This document shows, piece after piece, positions 7,856-14,919 of a DNA stretch of 64,000 bases (positions are counted from its first letter, which is position 1; every line of letters begins with the position of its first letter). Under the pieces are notes generated by a model. It worked only from the letters and a program-made list of their open reading frames with translations. It was not told where the DNA came from and made no database searches. The position numbers were made by a program, and so were the translations under genes. The stretch is from Gilvimarinus algae (GTDB lineage Bacteria > Pseudomonadota > Gammaproteobacteria > Pseudomonadales > Cellvibrionaceae): positions 186,001-250,000 of the forward strand of contig NZ_JAULRT010000062.1 of assembly GCF_030518215.1 (NCBI RefSeq), given 5' to 3'.

Positions 7856-7874
7856 CTGAAAGCTCGTCGTTATT

Positions 7875-7899
7875 AAGACCCGTGCTGCACACGGGTCTT
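7875..7899 (+). terminator. Intrinsic terminator after the SYLF gene
   Basis: AAGACCCGTG (7875-7884) pairs perfectly with CACGGGTCTT (7890-7899) around a 5-nt loop; a pyrimidine run TCCCTTT follows. It lies 20 bases after the SYLF stop codon. Confidence 0.8.
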
Positions 7900-8117
7900 T
7901 CCCTTTGAAACCGTCTCTCAAACTTTGTTAAAACCCATGGAGCTGTGACTTCAAGCACTATCGAGCAGTCAATAGGGACGAGGGCAGCCCCTCTGTTCAC
8001 CAGCGGTACCCGCGCCAGTCACCCTTCCCTAAAATGCCCGGCGGCTCCGGTTGCGCTCCCTTTAATGATGGCATATTGTCCTATAAACTGTTTCTAGGGA
8101 TGGACAGGTAGAGTCTG

Positions 8118-11114
8118 ATGGCAGTAAAGGTACAGCTGAATACGCGAGCGCTAAAAGCCCTTCGCACTCAGAAGGGATTAAGCCAGGAGGGTTTGGCAAA
8201 GGCTTGCGAGGCCAAGCAGTTTCGACTGTCCATTGCTACGATCAAGCGGGCCGAGGCCGGCAAGCCTGTGGGGTTTCGCACAGCCAACGAGCTCGCACGC
8301 TTTCACGCCGTTGCTCTGGAAGCCCTTTTGGCCGATTCGCTATCCGGCATGGCTGGTCGGCAGGGGCCCGGCACGGTAAATACCGCCCTTTGGGTGCGCG
8401 TTGAAGACACGTCCATTTTGGATGCGCTGGCAGATTTGATCGGTGCCCGCGGCGCTATTCACCAAGAGCGCCTCGGTAGTCTTCTTCTGGCAGCCTTTGC
8501 AAACAATGATGCCGAAAGTAAAGGGTATCTTCACGCCCATTACGCGGCTCTTGGCGCTTTGCGGTACGCGCGATCCGAGGCGTCCAATATTTACCTCGCC
8601 CTGCAGCTGGCGCCGGGTACGCCTTTCAGTAAACAGAGCTTTTTTCGTCAGGAAACCCTGCAGTGGTTCGCTAGTCTCTCGCCTGAGATTCCCGCCAATA
8701 CCCTGTATGTCAGTGATGATCTCTACGATCTTGCGGCCGATCATTTTCGTTACCGCCCGGCCTCGCGTGCCGGCGTGTGGGAGCTACTAGGCGAGCAGAG
8801 TCTGGATAACTTGCTGCCACTGTCGGGTCGCGAGACGGAGTTGACGCGGGTGCTTGAGTTTTTTGCCGGTGTGGACGATCAGTCGCGGGCAGCGATCATG
8901 CTGCTGCGCGGCGAGGCTGGTATCGGCAAAACTCGTTTGCGCGCGGCGGTGCACGCCGCCCTTGAGCCGCTCGATATCGTGATTGTGAGTATTGATCTTG
9001 AGACGGGCTGGCTGGAGCTGGATCAGGCTCTCGCAGGGTTACTGTTGCGCAGTCTGAACCTCGCTCTCGATGGCTTGGTCAAGCGCGAGGCGTTGCTCGA
9101 CCATGCCAGTAACGGCGATGCGGCGGTGCGGCAGTTCGTCCACACCTTTTTCTTCGATGCAACACAGCCCCGTCAGGAGGTCTGGCCGTCTCACGCAGGG
9201 CTCGACATGTCGCGGCTGCCCGAGGTAGTGGCCAGGGTCTTCGCTTCAGCGCGGGTTTTGTCTGGTTGCCGTCTTGTCCTATCGATGGATAACTTGCATC
9301 TACTCGATACGGCAGGTTTTGAATTTTTTAACCAATTATTGTTGCAGCTTGAGAGTTTGCCCGTTCAGGCCCTGTTGACCTCTCACCCCACACCCGCTCA
9401 AGAGATATTTATGCAGCGCCTGGCGCGGCAGGGCTTTGCTCTGGACAGTGTGTCGCTCGGTCCTTTGGATGAACAGGCCGGCCGGCAAATCTGCCAGGGT
9501 TTTTCCGGTGTGCCCGAAGACTATGCCGAGCGCTGTCTGGATCTTGCTCAGGGCGTGCCACTGTACCTGATTCAATTGATGGGAGCCTACCGTCATGACC
9601 GGGGCGCCTTACCCACCTCGCTTGGGGTGCTTGTAGAGCGAAAGCTCCACCAGCTGACCGGTCCTGAGCGTCAAGCTCTTGAAGTGTTGAGTGTATTGCG
9701 CGCACCTGTGGCATTAGAGGCGCTGCGTGAACTCATGAATGAGCCCTTTTACCAGCCGCATGGCTTGCTCGAGCGTCATCTCATACAGCCCACAATGGAT
9801 GGCCAGTTGCAAATGAGTCACCAATTGGTGCAGCACCTTGTGTATGAAAAGCTCGATTTGGCAAAGAGAGCCAGTTTACACCGGCAGGTAGCAAACTTTC
9901 TTGAGGCGCAGCCCGGGAGATGTCGCGCCGTGGGGGTGCGGCAAATGGCGCATCATTTCTCCCAGGGTGGTGATGACTACAAGAGCGCTTATTACGGCTT
10001 TCGCTGGGCTTCTACCCTGCTGCAACAGGGCCAATACGATGATGCCCAAGTGGTCCTGGAGGAAAGCCTGCAGCGGTTAACACCCTTGACTCACCCGGGC
10101 AGAGACGACCTTGAAGTGGATCTGCAGCTCGCTCTGAGTACTGTGTATAAGGTCAAGTACGGCTGGGTATCCCCGCTTCTAAAGGCAACTTACGACAGAG
10201 TTAACGAATTAAGCCAGCAGCTGGGGGCCGATGCCCGTCAATCGCTGGCACTGTTTGGCCTTTGGACCATAGAGCTTGGAACACTGAACTTTACCGGCGC
10301 TGAGGCCATGGCGCTCAAGCTGTTGACATCGGCGTGCAGTATCGGCGATGCCCAGGGGCAGATGTATGCCCAGGTGGCGTTAAGCAATACGCTGTTTTGG
10401 CGCGGTCGTCATACGGAGGCTGAGCTCGCCGCCGCCTCCGCGCTGACAGGTTTTAAGGAGTCCTATTTGGAATCATCGCTGGCGCTCTTGGGTATGGACC
10501 CAAGGGCGTTGGCGGGATGTTTTGGCGCGCTCTCAGCTTCTTTGGCGGGGCACGAGGCCGAGGCAAGCCATTACCGCGACGCTATGCTGGGGCAGATACG
10601 GGCGATTGACCACGATTTCAGTTTGGCCATAGCCCTGCAGGGCAGCGCCTGGCTTGAGTACCACAGGGACGATGCCGCTGCTACCCTGGCTGAGGCGGAG
10701 CAGCTGGAAGCCTTGGCCAAGGCTCGCAATTTTCCATTTTATCGTGGGGTGGCGGCCCTGTTTGCCAGCTGGGCGCGTCACCGGTTGCACGATGACCCGG
10801 ATGCCGCGCAACATGCTCACGAAGGTTATTGGCGTTGGCTGGCGGCCAGCGGAGACAAAGTGGCCTACTCGCTGTACGGCGTTACACTCGGTTCAATTTA
10901 TGTGGAAAGTGCCCGTTTTCAAGAGGCGCGGGAGCTGCTTGAGCAGTGTATAAAGGTGGCCACCGCACGTGGTGAAGACTGCTACCTGCCTGAGCTTTTT
11001 CGGCTTTTGGCCCTGTGCCCTGGCGAACACAAACGCAGGGCCCTGGAGCAGGGGCTGCTTTACGCCAAAGACTCGCCTTTGTTGAAAGCGCGCCTGGACG
11101 CCTTGCTCGACTAG
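8118..11114 (+). CDS. XRE-type HTH / degenerate nucleotide-cyclase-like / STAND ATPase / TPR signalling protein
   Basis: 998 residues. Residues about 5-70 look like an XRE helix-turn-helix (LKALRTQKGLSQEGLAKACE, SIATIKRAEAGKPV). Residues about 85-225 follow the outline of a class III nucleotidyl cyclase domain but lack recognisable metal-binding aspartates, so I call it degenerate. Residues about 230-500 form an AAA_16/STAND ATPase: GRETELTRVL, Walker A GEAGIGKT, and a Walker B-like RLVLSMDN. The rest (about 580-998) is helical and TPR-like. Cyclase-AAA-TPR proteins are common bacterial signalling scaffolds; here the HTH is added in front. It may act as an ATP-gated transcription regulator, with target unknown. 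Its end is convergent with the racemase-family gene. Confidence 0.75.
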   Translation: MAVKVQLNTRALKALRTQKGLSQEGLAKACEAKQFRLSIATIKRAEAGKPVGFRTANELARFHAVALEALLADSLSGMAGRQGPGTVNTALWVRVEDTSILDALADLIGARGAIHQERLGSLLLAAFANNDAESKGYLHAHYAALGALRYARSEASNIYLALQLAPGTPFSKQSFFRQETLQWFASLSPEIPANTLYVSDDLYDLAADHFRYRPASRAGVWELLGEQSLDNLLPLSGRETELTRVLEFFAGVDDQSRAAIMLLRGEAGIGKTRLRAAVHAALEPLDIVIVSIDLETGWLELDQALAGLLLRSLNLALDGLVKREALLDHASNGDAAVRQFVHTFFFDATQPRQEVWPSHAGLDMSRLPEVVARVFASARVLSGCRLVLSMDNLHLLDTAGFEFFNQLLLQLESLPVQALLTSHPTPAQEIFMQRLARQGFALDSVSLGPLDEQAGRQICQGFSGVPEDYAERCLDLAQGVPLYLIQLMGAYRHDRGALPTSLGVLVERKLHQLTGPERQALEVLSVLRAPVALEALRELMNEPFYQPHGLLERHLIQPTMDGQLQMSHQLVQHLVYEKLDLAKRASLHRQVANFLEAQPGRCRAVGVRQMAHHFSQGGDDYKSAYYGFRWASTLLQQGQYDDAQVVLEESLQRLTPLTHPGRDDLEVDLQLALSTVYKVKYGWVSPLLKATYDRVNELSQQLGADARQSLALFGLWTIELGTLNFTGAEAMALKLLTSACSIGDAQGQMYAQVALSNTLFWRGRHTEAELAAASALTGFKESYLESSLALLGMDPRALAGCFGALSASLAGHEAEASHYRDAMLGQIRAIDHDFSLAIALQGSAWLEYHRDDAAATLAEAEQLEALAKARNFPFYRGVAALFASWARHRLHDDPDAAQHAHEGYWRWLAASGDKVAYSLYGVTLGSIYVESARFQEARELLEQCIKVATARGEDCYLPELFRLLALCPGEHKRRALEQGLLYAKDSPLLKARLDALLD

Positions 11115-11156
11115 GTTACGAACTCCCTCTTATCAAAATATTCGTCACTTCGGCGA

Positions 11157-11912
11157 CTACCCATTCTTGACTGTCTCGCTCTCTGTGAGCGGTGGCGCTC
11201 GATAGGTGCGTTTGCTCTGAGAAATGCCAGAGAGCACTAAGTGCTGCAAAAAACTTATGGCAACCCGGTTGGGATCGAGTACCGGAATGTCAAGATGATT
11301 GCGCTTGAGTCGCTGTCGAACCTGATCTGCAATGCCGATAAAGCCCGTGCAACCGAGAATCAATGCTTCGGCGCCGTCTTCTGTGACAGCGGCATAAGCT
11401 TGTCGGTAGACTCGTTCGGCCGTTTTTTCTGGGTCATCCAGTAACTCACTGACGGGTGCTTTTGCCACTTTGATCGAAGCAAATCGATCCTGCAGTGCGC
11501 CGCTGTAAATGTGTTCCAGCTGCATATCCACGACGCTGTCCAGAATGGTGATGATGGAAAATCTTCGGCAAATGGATAGCGCGGTTGCCGTGTTAGCGGT
11601 GAAGCCGCCGATGATGGGAACGCTCAAGTGTTCCCTTGCGATCTCCACACCGCACATGTCCATGTCTGTGACATAAACTCCCTCACTGCCTTGCGCTTCA
11701 GCCTCTTTTGCAATAGCCAAAACGTATTGAGAGTTTTTTGCCAGATCGCTACGGCTTTGAATGCTGGGTGTTGCTCCCTTCGGTAAGGCTTTCAGAGTGA
11801 CCTTGCTGGCAGGGTGCAGTGCAGGGAAAATGGCTGTTCTTAAGCGCTCTGAGAATAAAGAAAGCGATTCCGTGCTTGGAAAATACACTGGAATAATTAT
11901 CGTCAGGTTCAT
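11157..11912 (-). CDS. Asp/Glu/hydantoin racemase-family protein
   Basis: 251 residues of the Asp/Glu racemase superfamily, seen in the GVYVTDMDMCGVEIAREHLSVPIIGG segment and the C-terminal ALILGCTGFIGIADQ. The second catalytic cysteine (LGCTG) is clear. The first is less so: the usual Cys position after the strand is occupied by DMDM with a Cys two to four residues later, so catalysis by the standard two-Cys mechanism is uncertain. Family members racemise aspartate, glutamate or hydantoins or isomerise maleate. The start at 11912 has AAGGAG upstream on the minus strand. It is divergent from the CDPS fusion gene across a 236-bp AT-rich gap, which raises the possibility of joint regulation and of a D-amino-acid role. 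Confidence 0.82.
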   Translation of the reverse strand: MNLTIIIPVYFPSTESLSLFSERLRTAIFPALHPASKVTLKALPKGATPSIQSRSDLAKNSQYVLAIAKEAEAQGSEGVYVTDMDMCGVEIAREHLSVPIIGGFTANTATALSICRRFSIITILDSVVDMQLEHIYSGALQDRFASIKVAKAPVSELLDDPEKTAERVYRQAYAAVTEDGAEALILGCTGFIGIADQVRQRLKRNHLDIPVLDPNRVAISFLQHLVLSGISQSKRTYRAPPLTESETVKNG

Positions 11913-12148
11913 TTAGATTTCTCCTTATCCTCCGTTTTAAAAATACTAGACAGTAAAAATTTTTCTTGCAATACATTTATGTTTGCTTGTTTATTAATCT
12001 ATAAAAATTTCATTTTTTTCTGGTCGTGGAGTGGAGGATGTTATGTAAAAAATACTTTTAATTATTTTTATGCTCGTTTTTCAGGAATTTATTTCTGTCG
12101 GTATTCTTTTGTCTTAAAAAAGCTTCTATGGAAATGGAGATTTTTGCT
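11913..12148. promoter_or_regulatory. AT-rich divergent control region between racemase-family gene and CDPS fusion
   Basis: This 236-bp stretch is strikingly richer in A and T than anything around it, with long A and T runs. It must hold the start regions of both divergent genes. I cannot assign confident -35/-10 boxes because too many AT-rich hexamers fit. The composition is typical of H-NS/MvaT-silenced or acquired regulatory DNA, which is inference. Confidence 0.5.
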
Positions 12149-13354
12149 ATGTTTTTTCTCGAAGAATTTTCCCGTGTGCTAGACAGTAAGAGAGTTAAGT
12201 TTAAAAAAATAGTGGCATCTGTGTGTTTCTCTGAGCAGGAAATTTCTGGCGGTGAGGTTCTGCATGCACTTCTGATTCAGCATGAAGGTAGGCCAGCCAT
12301 TGCTCTGCTGCCCTCTGATCGGGTTCTCGATTTCCCGGCTTTTGATCGTTTATTTGGTTGTCGGTATTCAGGGGTGTTAAAAGACGGGTGCTGTTCGGAG
12401 GTTTTTCGCGAAGCCGACCTGGCGCATCTTCCTATTTTCATAGACTCGGCGGTTTCCTGTGAAACGGTTAGTATTTATCACGAGTCACCGTATTTCTCTA
12501 TCGAGGTTAGACTGGCAGATGTGCTGAACCGGTTGGGGGCAATGCCTTGTCCTTGCTTTGCGCCAAAAAAATATAAGGTTCGACCCAGGACGGTGTCGCC
12601 GTCATGGAGGAGGGAAGGCCTATTTAATGCTGAGCGCGTGGTGCTCGGTGTGAGTCTTGAAAATGACAAATTTTGTGGTGAGAAACTCAAAGCGCAATTG
12701 CATTGGGTTGCCGGGCGGTTCGAGCACTGCACACTGCTTCTGGGCGATTGGATGCACCATCACACGGTGCGCATGAACGAAGACTGTGATGAGGCTCAGG
12801 CGCTGGCGCGAGCAGAGGCGGTTGCGCGTGACAAAACTCTCGAGCTTGAAGCTCTGCTGCAGAAAATTGAGGGCCGCTGTCAGTTTGAGCTTCTGCCAGG
12901 CTCTGAAGTGGTGATGGCCAGCCCGGATTACCCGGCGCATCGGCGGCAGCTGGAGCAATTGCTAGAGCAGTGTCCGGATTTTGCTTGTTCTGCCAGGCAT
13001 TTTGCCGCCAGCTACGTCAGTCGCCGGGATCAGCCGTTGGAGGCCTTCTATGCTCATTCGAGTGCTTATCTCTTGGATGAATTGGCGCTGTTCGCGTCCC
13101 TTTCCCAGCAGGGGTACCGGGTATTTATCTACCCGGGGGCTATGGCGGTATTTCACGAAATGTCCTGCGGTTTGCATCCGCAAGCCCCCGAGCCTTTGCA
13201 TCAGCTGGTCAGCGTCGAGCTGAAGTTTACCAGCAACGCACAGCACAACCGTGCGGCTTCACCGACGCAAGAGCAAGGCTTGTACCGTAGTTTCGCCGAA
13301 TGGCGCCTCGCGCGAGCTATGGAGGTGCCGACCTTGGGACAGTCGGCCACTTAG
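12149..13354 (+). CDS. Fusion of a degenerate YbaK-like editing domain with a tRNA-dependent cyclodipeptide synthase
   Basis: 401 residues. Residues about 20-130 follow the YbaK/ProX fold: a hydrophobic strand LHALLIQHEGRP, the IALLPSDRVLDFPAFDRLFG block, and a closing strand SIEVRLADVLNRLG. The Lys essential in YbaK is His39 here and the Gly-Pro loop is missing. Residues about 163-362 align by eye with AlbC-type CDPSs: GVSLEN (catalytic-type Ser169 with Asn at +3), QLHWVAGRFEHCTLLLGDW, YLLDELALF (Tyr307/Glu311, like AlbC Tyr178/Glu182), and YPG at 328-330. The Ser-to-Tyr distance (138) matches AlbC (141). CDPSs join two aminoacyl-tRNAs into a diketopiperazine. GGAGA at 12136-12140 supports the ATG at 12149 over 12128. 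Products are unknown. Confidence 0.72.
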   Translation: MFFLEEFSRVLDSKRVKFKKIVASVCFSEQEISGGEVLHALLIQHEGRPAIALLPSDRVLDFPAFDRLFGCRYSGVLKDGCCSEVFREADLAHLPIFIDSAVSCETVSIYHESPYFSIEVRLADVLNRLGAMPCPCFAPKKYKVRPRTVSPSWRREGLFNAERVVLGVSLENDKFCGEKLKAQLHWVAGRFEHCTLLLGDWMHHHTVRMNEDCDEAQALARAEAVARDKTLELEALLQKIEGRCQFELLPGSEVVMASPDYPAHRRQLEQLLEQCPDFACSARHFAASYVSRRDQPLEAFYAHSSAYLLDELALFASLSQQGYRVFIYPGAMAVFHEMSCGLHPQAPEPLHQLVSVELKFTSNAQHNRAASPTQEQGLYRSFAEWRLARAMEVPTLGQSAT

Positions 13355-13585
13355 CGCGACTGAAGGGCGTTTCTGAAGATATGGCGCGTAAATGATACCA
13401 AAGTGATACCAACAGCCAAATGCCCTTTCAATATACTGCTCAGACCAGTCAGGCCGGGGGCATCTCCGGCCGCTTTTGCGCTGGCAGATAAGCTTGTGAA
13501 GGAATCACCAGCCAGCGGGCAGGCACAGGACGCGCAGCCCATACAATAAGAGGGGCCCGGAAAGTGGCAGGGCGGCCCGACAGCG

Positions 13586-14833
13586 GTGATTGAATTGGCA
13601 GACCAGATCGGTAACAGCTCGGCGTCGCGCAGTGCGCTCTTTGAAAGAATACGCGGCGGACGCATCTCCTCCCCCATGCAACAGCTCAACCGACAGTGGA
13701 ACCTGTATGTGCAGGGGCTCTGGGGGGTGGACACCAGTCAGTCGGTCTTTCAGGTGGTCACCGGTGAGCCGCCGCCGGGCTGTGAAGGCGATGCGCGGCT
13801 CTACTGGTTTGCTGACCAGGTGCCCAGTGACAGCTCAACGGGGGGCTACGACCGCTACGGCATCACCAGCTCCCAGGCCTACAGTGAGCTTTTGTTTTCT
13901 CTTTTGCCTCAAGATGGTGGCGAGCTGCGCGCGGTGTTGTCCGAGGGCTACAGCGACTGGGTGAGATACCGCTCCCAGTATTACAGCGGTAGCCTCGGGC
14001 AAAAGGTCTTGGATCAGGACGCGCTGTTTCGCAAGTGGGCCGCCCGTAGCCTGTCGCCCAAGGTGGCGCGTCACGCTATTTCGGTATTTACTCAGGCGCA
14101 ACTCACCAGTTTTAATCTGGCAATTGATGCCCTCGCCGATCCCTCCGCCCGTATTTTTTGCCCCGATGAGACAGGCCGTCAGATGCCGCTGTTCCGCTAT
14201 TCCGGCTCTGCGCAAGCAGTCCAGTCCGTCTTTGCCAGCTCAGACCCCGTCGGTCATTTTGCCTTTGATTCCGGCGAGATAGCGCAGCGCGCCAGCCACG
14301 CCTGGGCCGATGAGCGCGAACGTGGTTTTAGCCGGCTGTGGCGCTGCCGCGATTTGTCCCAAGACAAGAATATCCAGGCGAAAGCGGAGGGCGCCAGGGT
14401 CACTGTGCATGGCCGCCTGGGAAGGGTGGCACAAATTGAAACTGCCCCCCTGGGCTGGTTTGATCCGCGTATGGTGAAGATGGCGTACCGTCACCCCGGC
14501 GACCATCGTATCTGGGACGTGAGGGGCCGCTACGATTGGCAGAGTCTGTTCGCCCAGCCCGACGGGGCCTTATCGCGTTTTGTATCCTCGCTGGTGCTGG
14601 TGGAAGAGGGACGGTTTACCCTGACCGTGCACGCGCCGTTTACCCGCGCTGAATTCGAGGCCATCAGCGCCAGTGCGGGTCTGCCCTGGCCGCTGCTGCA
14701 AGTGCATGATAACCGGGCAGTGGAATGCCGCTATCGGCAGGATCTGGATGGCTCCATCTCTTGCGATTTCGTGGCCCGCCCGGGTTACCAGCACGTCTGG
14801 GGGCTGACCTACCGCGCTCTGGCGTATTCATAG
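13586..14833 (+). CDS. Uncharacterised 415-residue protein downstream of the CDPS fusion
   Basis: I do not recognise the family. The protein has no signal peptide or membrane segment, is rich in Trp, Tyr and Arg, and contains repeated aromatic patches (DARLYWFADQVP, GYDRYGITSSQAYSELLF, HRIWDVRGRYDWQSLF, YQHVWGLTYRALAYS). The C-terminal half looks like a soluble beta-rich domain. The start is uncertain: the GTG at 13586 is the first start codon in the frame after a TAA at 13547-13549, has no clear ribosome site, and an ATG at 13676 is an alternative. It follows the CDPS gene after 231 bp on the same strand, so co-function is possible but not shown. Confidence 0.6.
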   Translation: MIELADQIGNSSASRSALFERIRGGRISSPMQQLNRQWNLYVQGLWGVDTSQSVFQVVTGEPPPGCEGDARLYWFADQVPSDSSTGGYDRYGITSSQAYSELLFSLLPQDGGELRAVLSEGYSDWVRYRSQYYSGSLGQKVLDQDALFRKWAARSLSPKVARHAISVFTQAQLTSFNLAIDALADPSARIFCPDETGRQMPLFRYSGSAQAVQSVFASSDPVGHFAFDSGEIAQRASHAWADERERGFSRLWRCRDLSQDKNIQAKAEGARVTVHGRLGRVAQIETAPLGWFDPRMVKMAYRHPGDHRIWDVRGRYDWQSLFAQPDGALSRFVSSLVLVEEGRFTLTVHAPFTRAEFEAISASAGLPWPLLQVHDNRAVECRYRQDLDGSISCDFVARPGYQHVWGLTYRALAYS

Positions 14834-14857
14834 GGGCGGTTCTAGGTACTGTCGGGG

Positions 14858-14903
14858 TTTACCTTTGGATGACAATTCCCTAAAATGAACGAATGTTCAT
14901 TTT
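14858..14903 (+). promoter_or_regulatory. tetR promoter and TetR operator 1
   Basis: AAAATGAAC-GAAT-GTTCATTTT at 14882-14903 is a perfect inverted repeat with 9-bp arms and a 4-bp centre. A TAAAAT -10 box (14881-14886) overlaps it, with TTTACC (14858-14863) 17 bp upstream. The core TGAAC-N4-GTTCA recurs before the efflux operon at 15599, which indicates autoregulation by the TetR protein encoded just downstream. Confidence 0.82.
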
Positions 14904-14919
14904 TGTGTGTTGTTGATTC

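Follow-up and report, generated by a model that had tools for sequence, protein, structure and literature searches.

A cyclodipeptide synthase joined in one reading frame to an N-terminal region of YbaK-type tRNA-editing ancestry in Gilvimarinus algae

We report that a 64,000-nucleotide stretch of the Gilvimarinus algae genome (contig NZ_JAULRT010000062.1; the whole stretch is referred to as the window) encodes, in a single open reading frame (ORF), a cyclodipeptide synthase (CDPS) preceded by a region with ancestry in the YbaK family of aminoacyl-tRNA editing proteins. The fusion is real: the frame is free of stops throughout its 408 codons from ATG 12128, and the same domain order is present in one 389-aa ORF of a second genome, from the same taxonomic order (L006/L047). 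This bears out the one-gene fusion proposed in an earlier reading of the DNA letters (hereafter the sequence-only reading). An alternative start, ATG 12149, with GGAG upstream (by eye), gives a 401-aa form, and residue numbers follow that form unless the 408-aa form is named. The explanation that we favour, tentatively and at somewhat less than an even chance, is a CDPS with a catalytically dead acceptor-arm docking module in front, the product of which would then be epimerised by a neighbouring racemase. The features of the locus are listed in Table 1.

Table 1. Coordinates of the fusion gene, its landmarks and its neighbours in the window
Feature	Position	Strand	Basis or remark
YbaK-like/CDPS fusion ORF	12128..13354	+	Open reading frame, domain searches
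Degenerate YbaK-like N-terminal region, residues about 1-100	12149..12448	+	Profile searches, alignment, shuffles
His39 codon, at family Lys position	12263-12265	+	Alignment
CDPS domain, residues 138-362	12560..13234	+	Pfam/NCBIfam, PDB sequence match, Foldseek
Ser169	12653-12655	+	CDPS landmark
Asn172	12662-12664	+	CDPS landmark
Tyr307	13067-13069	+	CDPS landmark
Glu311	13079-13081	+	CDPS landmark
Tyr328-Pro329	13130-13135	+	CDPS landmark
Asp/Glu/hydantoin racemase family protein (PF01177), 251 aa	11157..11912	-	Pfam; divergent from CDPS gene
HTH + AAA_16 (STAND-like) + TPR protein, 998 aa, probably regulator	8118..11114	+	Domain matches
415-aa protein without family match	13586..14833	+	Homologue in Photobacterium jeanii
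Insert with four genes (regulator, racemase, fusion, 415-aa protein)	7856..14919	.	Sister-species comparison

The identity of the C-terminal half as a CDPS, also claimed in the sequence-only reading, is secure. The fusion protein scores 82.8 bits with TIGR04539 (cut-off 45; E 2.4e-23; the match covers residues 163-363 in 408-aa numbering) and 34.6 bits with PF16715 (cut-off 27), and its best PDB sequence match is 9j61 (E 2.7e-28; AlbC E 0.0012). The AF2 model (A11, computed from a two-sequence alignment) has a mean pLDDT of 58 over the whole protein, with ten-residue block means in the CDPS part that are mostly 70-95 and, in the few lowest blocks, 50-64. Using this model Foldseek ranked 9j61 first (E 4.1e-16; TM 0.88 when normalised by target length) and all 44 matches with E up to 0.001 were CDPSs, pointing to the CDPS-type Rossmann fold. 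Ser169, Tyr307, Glu311, Tyr328 and Pro329 are invariant in a six-sequence alignment and, together with Asn172, lie at the positions first assigned to them. Ser169, Tyr307, Glu311 and Tyr328 are the equivalents of the CDPS residues Ser37, Tyr178, Glu182 and Tyr202 (PMC7566563).

With respect to subfamily, Tyr328-Pro329 provides the Tyr-Pro of the 202-203 equivalent, which is an XYP-type mark, and the strand motifs KVRP and LKFTS fit in part (by eye) the KphiXF and L(R/K)FKK consensus described for beta-2 and beta-7 of XYP-CDPSs (PMC7566563). The position-40 equivalent is Asn in 5 of the 9 CDPS-group rows (the window, L003, L006, L010 and 9j61) and Ser in the other four (L005, L008, L043 and L133). 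Since Asn is this frequent in the group, and since the X of XYP is by its name presumably an open first position, Asn with Tyr-Pro is no mixed mark; the suggestion that the protein mixes subfamily features was rejected on these grounds. The closest solved relative, 9j61 from Streptomyces sapporonensis, has the same fold, the catalytic Ser/Tyr/Glu/Tyr set and the Tyr-Pro motif at 29-31% identity (structural alignment) but, unlike the window fusion, is a 249-residue chain without an N-terminal domain. Judging from the organism, which is described as a bicyclomycin producer (PMC6934819), 9j61 would be the bicyclomycin CDPS (cyclo-Ile-Leu). By its relatives, the window CDPS is predicted to synthesise a cyclodipeptide, i.e. 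it is probably a bacterial enzyme that builds small cyclic peptides from charged tRNAs.

The first 145 residues (408-aa form) have no match in Pfam or NCBIfam, PF04073 being absent at E up to 10, and match the YbaK-like structure 3op6 weakly (phmmer, E 0.0099). Profile searches, which place the CDPS half above family cut-offs directly, reached YbaK from this region through intermediates. Searched against 4,884 ORFs including five targets, a profile of 10 standalone YbaK proteins gave E 0.013 for the window region, the same 10 with L006 gave E 0.0023, and the 10 with one HDOD-linked YbaK domain (L004) gave E 1.9e-6; with this last profile the best of the remaining ORFs, leaving aside targets and members of the CDPS group, had E 0.63. 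None of 2000 shuffles scored as high as the real sequence under any of the three profiles (about 1300-1360 of them received a score), and in the reciprocal search the L004 YbaK domain retrieved the window ORF at E 2.7e-5. The YbaK intermediates had come up in searches whose query was the window protein or an alignment containing it; L004, L018 and L021 are PF04073 members on their own (E 1.6e-8, 4.4e-27 and 1.1e-28, respectively). Among the sequences compared, the window domain comes closest to the YbaK portion of a YbaK-HDOD protein (25.4 bits). Fusions of a YbaK-like domain with an HDOD signalling domain are encoded at L004 1405-2790 and at L149 372-1817.

With hhalign, residues 5-74 were the only ones aligned to YbaK (probability 84-95%) and residues 76-137 have no recognisable YbaK likeness; the likeness is thus shown for about half of the region. 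For about residues 5-74 YbaK ancestry is shown by computation, so the YbaK-type N-terminal half of the sequence-only reading stands for that segment and not for the residues that follow. Structure prediction combined with fold search, informative for the CDPS half, added little here: in residues 3-70 the order of helices and strands is YbaK-like by eye at pLDDT mostly under 50, and the N-terminal part modelled alone has a mean pLDDT of 47 and, with this low-pLDDT model, gave no Foldseek match at E 0.001.

A Gly-X-X-X-Pro loop is a motif of the YbaK/INS editing family. Members of the YbaK/ProXp/INS family (PF04073) have this loop and a Lys. In the multiple alignment, the window copy carries His39 in place of this Lys and has a deletion where the Gly-Pro loop would be, in agreement with the degeneracy noted earlier; the Lys is retained in L006, L005, L010 and L004. 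In ProXp-ala, K45 contacts A76 and is required for binding and deacylation, and its loss is described as dramatically impairing both (PMC10164551). Because the A76-seating Lys and the Gly-Pro loop are lost, deacylation is most likely absent, and we class the N-terminal half as a degenerate YbaK-like domain rather than as a deacylase.

Relatives were searched for with the window protein or its alignments in overlapping sets of 97, 390, 369, 5, 397, 140, 42, 15, 248 and 20 genomes (E limits 1e-3 for the 97, 1e-5 for the 390 and 369, 1e-10 for the 20 and 1e-20 for the others), and four N-extended members of the CDPS group were found: the window protein, L006/L047, L005/L048 and L010/L046. The YbaK domain of L006 is nearly intact, with the Lys and a PFG loop (3op6 E 6.7e-16; PF04073 E 2.5e-5, 24.8 bits, just under the 25.5 cut-off), and the CDPS of the same protein scores 51.5 bits with TIGR04539 (cut-off 45); hence the two halves are not separate genes in all homologues. 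The 358-aa L005/L048 protein has an eroded N-terminal part, weak as YbaK (E 0.034, 0.0019 and 1.8e-4 with the three profiles), in which the Lys is retained in LAK, while the 324-aa L010/L046 protein carries a stub of about 100 residues without support as YbaK in the profile searches (E 0.10-0.25). Since the domain is absent in L003, L043, L133 and PDB 9j61, and a stub in L010, it is dispensable in the group. The CDPS of L134 (Okeania) is interrupted by stops. For seven other CDPSs of the class with longer frames the best YbaK match had E 0.18 or worse; their CDPS starts within residues 17-57 and the extra part is C-terminal. A profile scan of genome contigs with the CDPS alignment gave no match, scans of viral contigs revealed no relative of the searched proteins, and tblastn against plasmids and phages gave no match.

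Other CDPS architectures were seen during these searches. In other genomes of the class, CDPS ORFs reach 392-473 aa through long extensions at the C-terminal end (L153-L157), and L043 1033-2340 (= L045 8313-9620, L052 6546-7853), from a Thiotrichaceae MAG, encodes a CDPS that bears a cyclic-nucleotide-binding domain at its C-terminus (PF00027, E 2.6e-10) and adjoins a racemase gene, an S-Me-THD-like gene and large ATPase-like genes.

The tree of 24 CDPS domains places the four N-extended proteins in one nine-row group (support 99/99), together with L003, L043, L133, 9j61 and the long-branched L008. Neither a clade of the four (p-AU 0.066) nor a clade of window plus L006 (p-AU 0.14) was rejected, and the latter was not rejected in the YbaK tree, which is saturated (p-AU 0.34); one or several fusion events are thus both compatible with the data. 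The window and L006 domains have no significant pairwise similarity, so the kinship of the fused domains rests on the YbaK family as a whole. This lack of likeness, set beside the 25.4-bit match of the window domain to HDOD-linked YbaK, hints at two fusion events.

Within the genus, the fusion protein has no match in 7 other genomes (E limit 1e-3). The gene lies in an insert of about 7 kb, flanked by a Ysc84-like gene and a TetR/RND pump operon. The six sister species compared at this site (6 of the 7 genomes, without G004) lack the insert there, and none of the six stretches matches any of the four genes 8118-14833 at E 1e-8. The site itself is variable: it is empty in three sisters (L143, L144 and L147), where the Ysc84-like gene and the TetR gene of the operon are direct neighbours, and in the other three (L145, L146 and L148) it holds a different insert of two genes.

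The racemase (PF01177, E 4.3e-26) has allantoin and hydantoin racemases as its nearest solved relatives, and Cys87 and Cys188, invariant in four sequences, form a two-Cys dyad. A racemase gene of this type adjoins the CDPS gene in the window, L047 and L045 and is 5.5 kb away from it in L048; the 18 kb of L049 contain no racemase that could be found, and the L046 stretch covers only 4.6 kb. Scanning genome contigs with the racemase alignment, which would miss fusions without a nearby racemase, gave 79 loci, with a CDPS, as judged by our HMMs, in the fetched DNA at one (L052) and at none of the other 78. In the fetched DNA, racemases of this type are far commoner without a CDPS, beside S-Me-THD-like genes where looked at, so the racemase is not CDPS-specific. 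Pairing with an S-Me-THD-like gene (PF06032/PF20906) was seen at L053, L059 and L113 among the loci tested, and also at L048 and L045, suggesting that the racemase may act on cyclic amides in general. Symploca and Okeania (cyanobacteria), two of the 20 racemase-bearing genomes searched out of the 79 loci, have racemase and CDPS on separate contigs. The four CDPS-linked racemases are not joined in a 78-row racemase tree, where the window row is on a suspiciously long branch. At L056 and L054, racemases of the same family adjoin, by eye, genes that are NRPS-like (in Symploca) or PKS-like (in SAR324).

The HTH-ATPase-TPR protein is a probable regulator of the locus. Regulators of the same type are found near racemases of this family at L068 (39% across the whole length), L104, L112, L113 and L114. 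A unit of racemase, S-Me-THD-like protein and large ATPase/TPR regulator recurs in several bacterial families (L053, L059, L068, L104, L112, L113 and L114; the S-Me-THD-like call is by Pfam for L053, L059 and L113 and by eye for the others). The window 415-aa protein has no Pfam match and no meaningful NCBIfam, PHROG or PDB match; in L104 (Photobacterium jeanii) a homologue (25%, E 3e-33) is encoded between the racemase and the regulator. The proteins of L104 7355-8554 and window 13586-14833 are both about 400 aa long, lack a Pfam match and are linked to the racemase/regulator unit.

As to the role of the racemase, NozR, an Asp/Glu racemase homologue, is reported to isomerise cyclo-Trp-Trp (PMC10156859). 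NozR and the window racemase belong to the same broad family, have the two-Cys dyad and are linked to a CDPS pathway; however, NozR is encoded away from its CDPS whereas the window racemase is a divergent neighbour, and the two are likened at the level of the family. By this analogy the window racemase probably epimerises the cyclodipeptide.

CDPS chemistry converts two aminoacyl-tRNAs to a cyclodipeptide via an acyl-Ser enzyme intermediate. In the mechanism that we propose, the window CDPS, with XYP-type marks of the 9j61 group, would take two aminoacyl-tRNAs in this manner, form the acyl-Ser intermediate and yield a cyclodipeptide. The N-terminal domain, derived from the YbaK/INS editing family and most likely devoid of deacylation, would most likely dock the acceptor arm and so help to catch or hold aminoacyl-tRNA; the divergently encoded racemase would then epimerise the cyclodipeptide, and the HTH-ATPase-TPR protein would regulate the locus. 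Strands beta-2 and beta-7 of XYP-CDPSs are reported to bind the acceptor stem (PMC7566563), and since the end of the N-terminal domain is close in front of beta-2, the domain would be next to the acceptor arm, well placed for docking. Docking is our preferred reading of this domain, as far as sequence can suggest, but it meets two objections: loss of the A76-contacting Lys weakens docking as much as catalysis, so that docking would need other contacts, and the low GC3 and degenerate sequence also fit a decaying remnant. The substrate-selecting or tRNA-delivering role suggested in the sequence-only reading is plausible.

The last of these readings, i.e. that the N-terminal region is what remains of a once useful YbaK domain and is now structural or neutral, is unlikely. 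The family Lys and the loop are lost, residues 76-137 are unrecognisable, and the relatives form a graded series from the near-intact L006 over the eroded L005 and the stub of L010 to L003, which has none. Moreover, GC3 is 0.44 in the first 145 codons, while 103 equal segments of other window ORFs average 0.65 (sd 0.058) and go no lower than 0.53; the shift is gradual along the fusion gene, and the low value fits foreign origin or relaxed constraint and is proof of neither. However, the frame has stayed open over about 140 codons, about residues 5-74 still align with YbaK, and if the extension were neutral one would expect its loss or disruption.

Rather doubtful is a sensor function, in which the N-terminal domain would regulate the CDPS, e.g. 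via uncharged or mischarged tRNA, as YbaK-HDOD proteins may do. The closeness of the window domain to a YbaK domain linked to HDOD speaks for it, as does the PF00027 domain on the L043/L052 CDPS, by which a regulatory domain is joined to the same CDPS group elsewhere, but we know of no ligand or function for YbaK-HDOD proteins. We consider it improbable that the region is unrelated to YbaK or that the ORF is an assembly join. There is no direct Pfam match, standalone YbaK proteins alone gave only E 0.013, the structure models are uninformative and the search for intermediates started from the window protein itself; on the other side stand the profile, shuffle and reciprocal results, and a join is strongly disfavoured, and was rejected, because the independent L006/L047 genome has the same order in one ORF. 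Finally, that the domain still edits, hydrolysing unwanted aminoacyl-tRNA so that the right substrate reaches the CDPS, is very improbable: the Lys and PFG loop of L006 and the LAK of L005 make editing possible in relatives, but the window copy has lost both elements, and a Lys-to-Ala change dramatically impairs deacylation in the family members tested (PMC10164551).

The architecture differs from CDPS fusions described to date. Published fusions carry a C-terminal methyltransferase, P450 or ABC-transporter domain, and the Legionellaceae cAA CDPSs an extra C-terminal domain (PMC5816076, Gondry 2018); methyltransferases fused to the CDPS C-terminus are also described by Skinnider 2018 (PMC5767969), and the CDPSs reported by Aravind 2010 are standalone only (PMC2922099). 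These fusions and the window protein are alike in that the CDPS is part of a larger protein, but in the window the partner is N-terminal and of tRNA-editing ancestry. Open-licence papers naming both 'cyclodipeptide synthase' and 'YbaK' contained, in their searchable text, no description of a YbaK-CDPS fusion, so the statement in the sequence-only reading that it knew of none is uncontradicted there; within the open-licence literature we did not find this architecture described, and a description elsewhere is possible.

CDPSs share aminoacyl-tRNAs with EF-Tu (PMC7566563). A wider reading, which we regard as possible though not likely, is that editing domains were joined to CDPSs more than once and from separate lineages of YbaK (the HDOD-linked one for the window, the standalone 3op6 type for L006), as a tethered reader of the acceptor end that would give the enzyme first choice of aminoacyl-tRNA versus EF-Tu; this would define a tRNA-selecting class of CDPSs coupled to an epimerase for cyclodipeptides with D-amino acids. 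How a CDPS chooses its two aminoacyl-tRNAs is still being worked out and the architecture reported here could help to test it, in that the series of near-intact, eroded and missing domains offers tests of whether a second tRNA-reading module alters affinity or product choice. Finally, the neighbouring racemase suggests a compact route, CDPS plus epimerase, to D-configured cyclodipeptides in Gammaproteobacteria.
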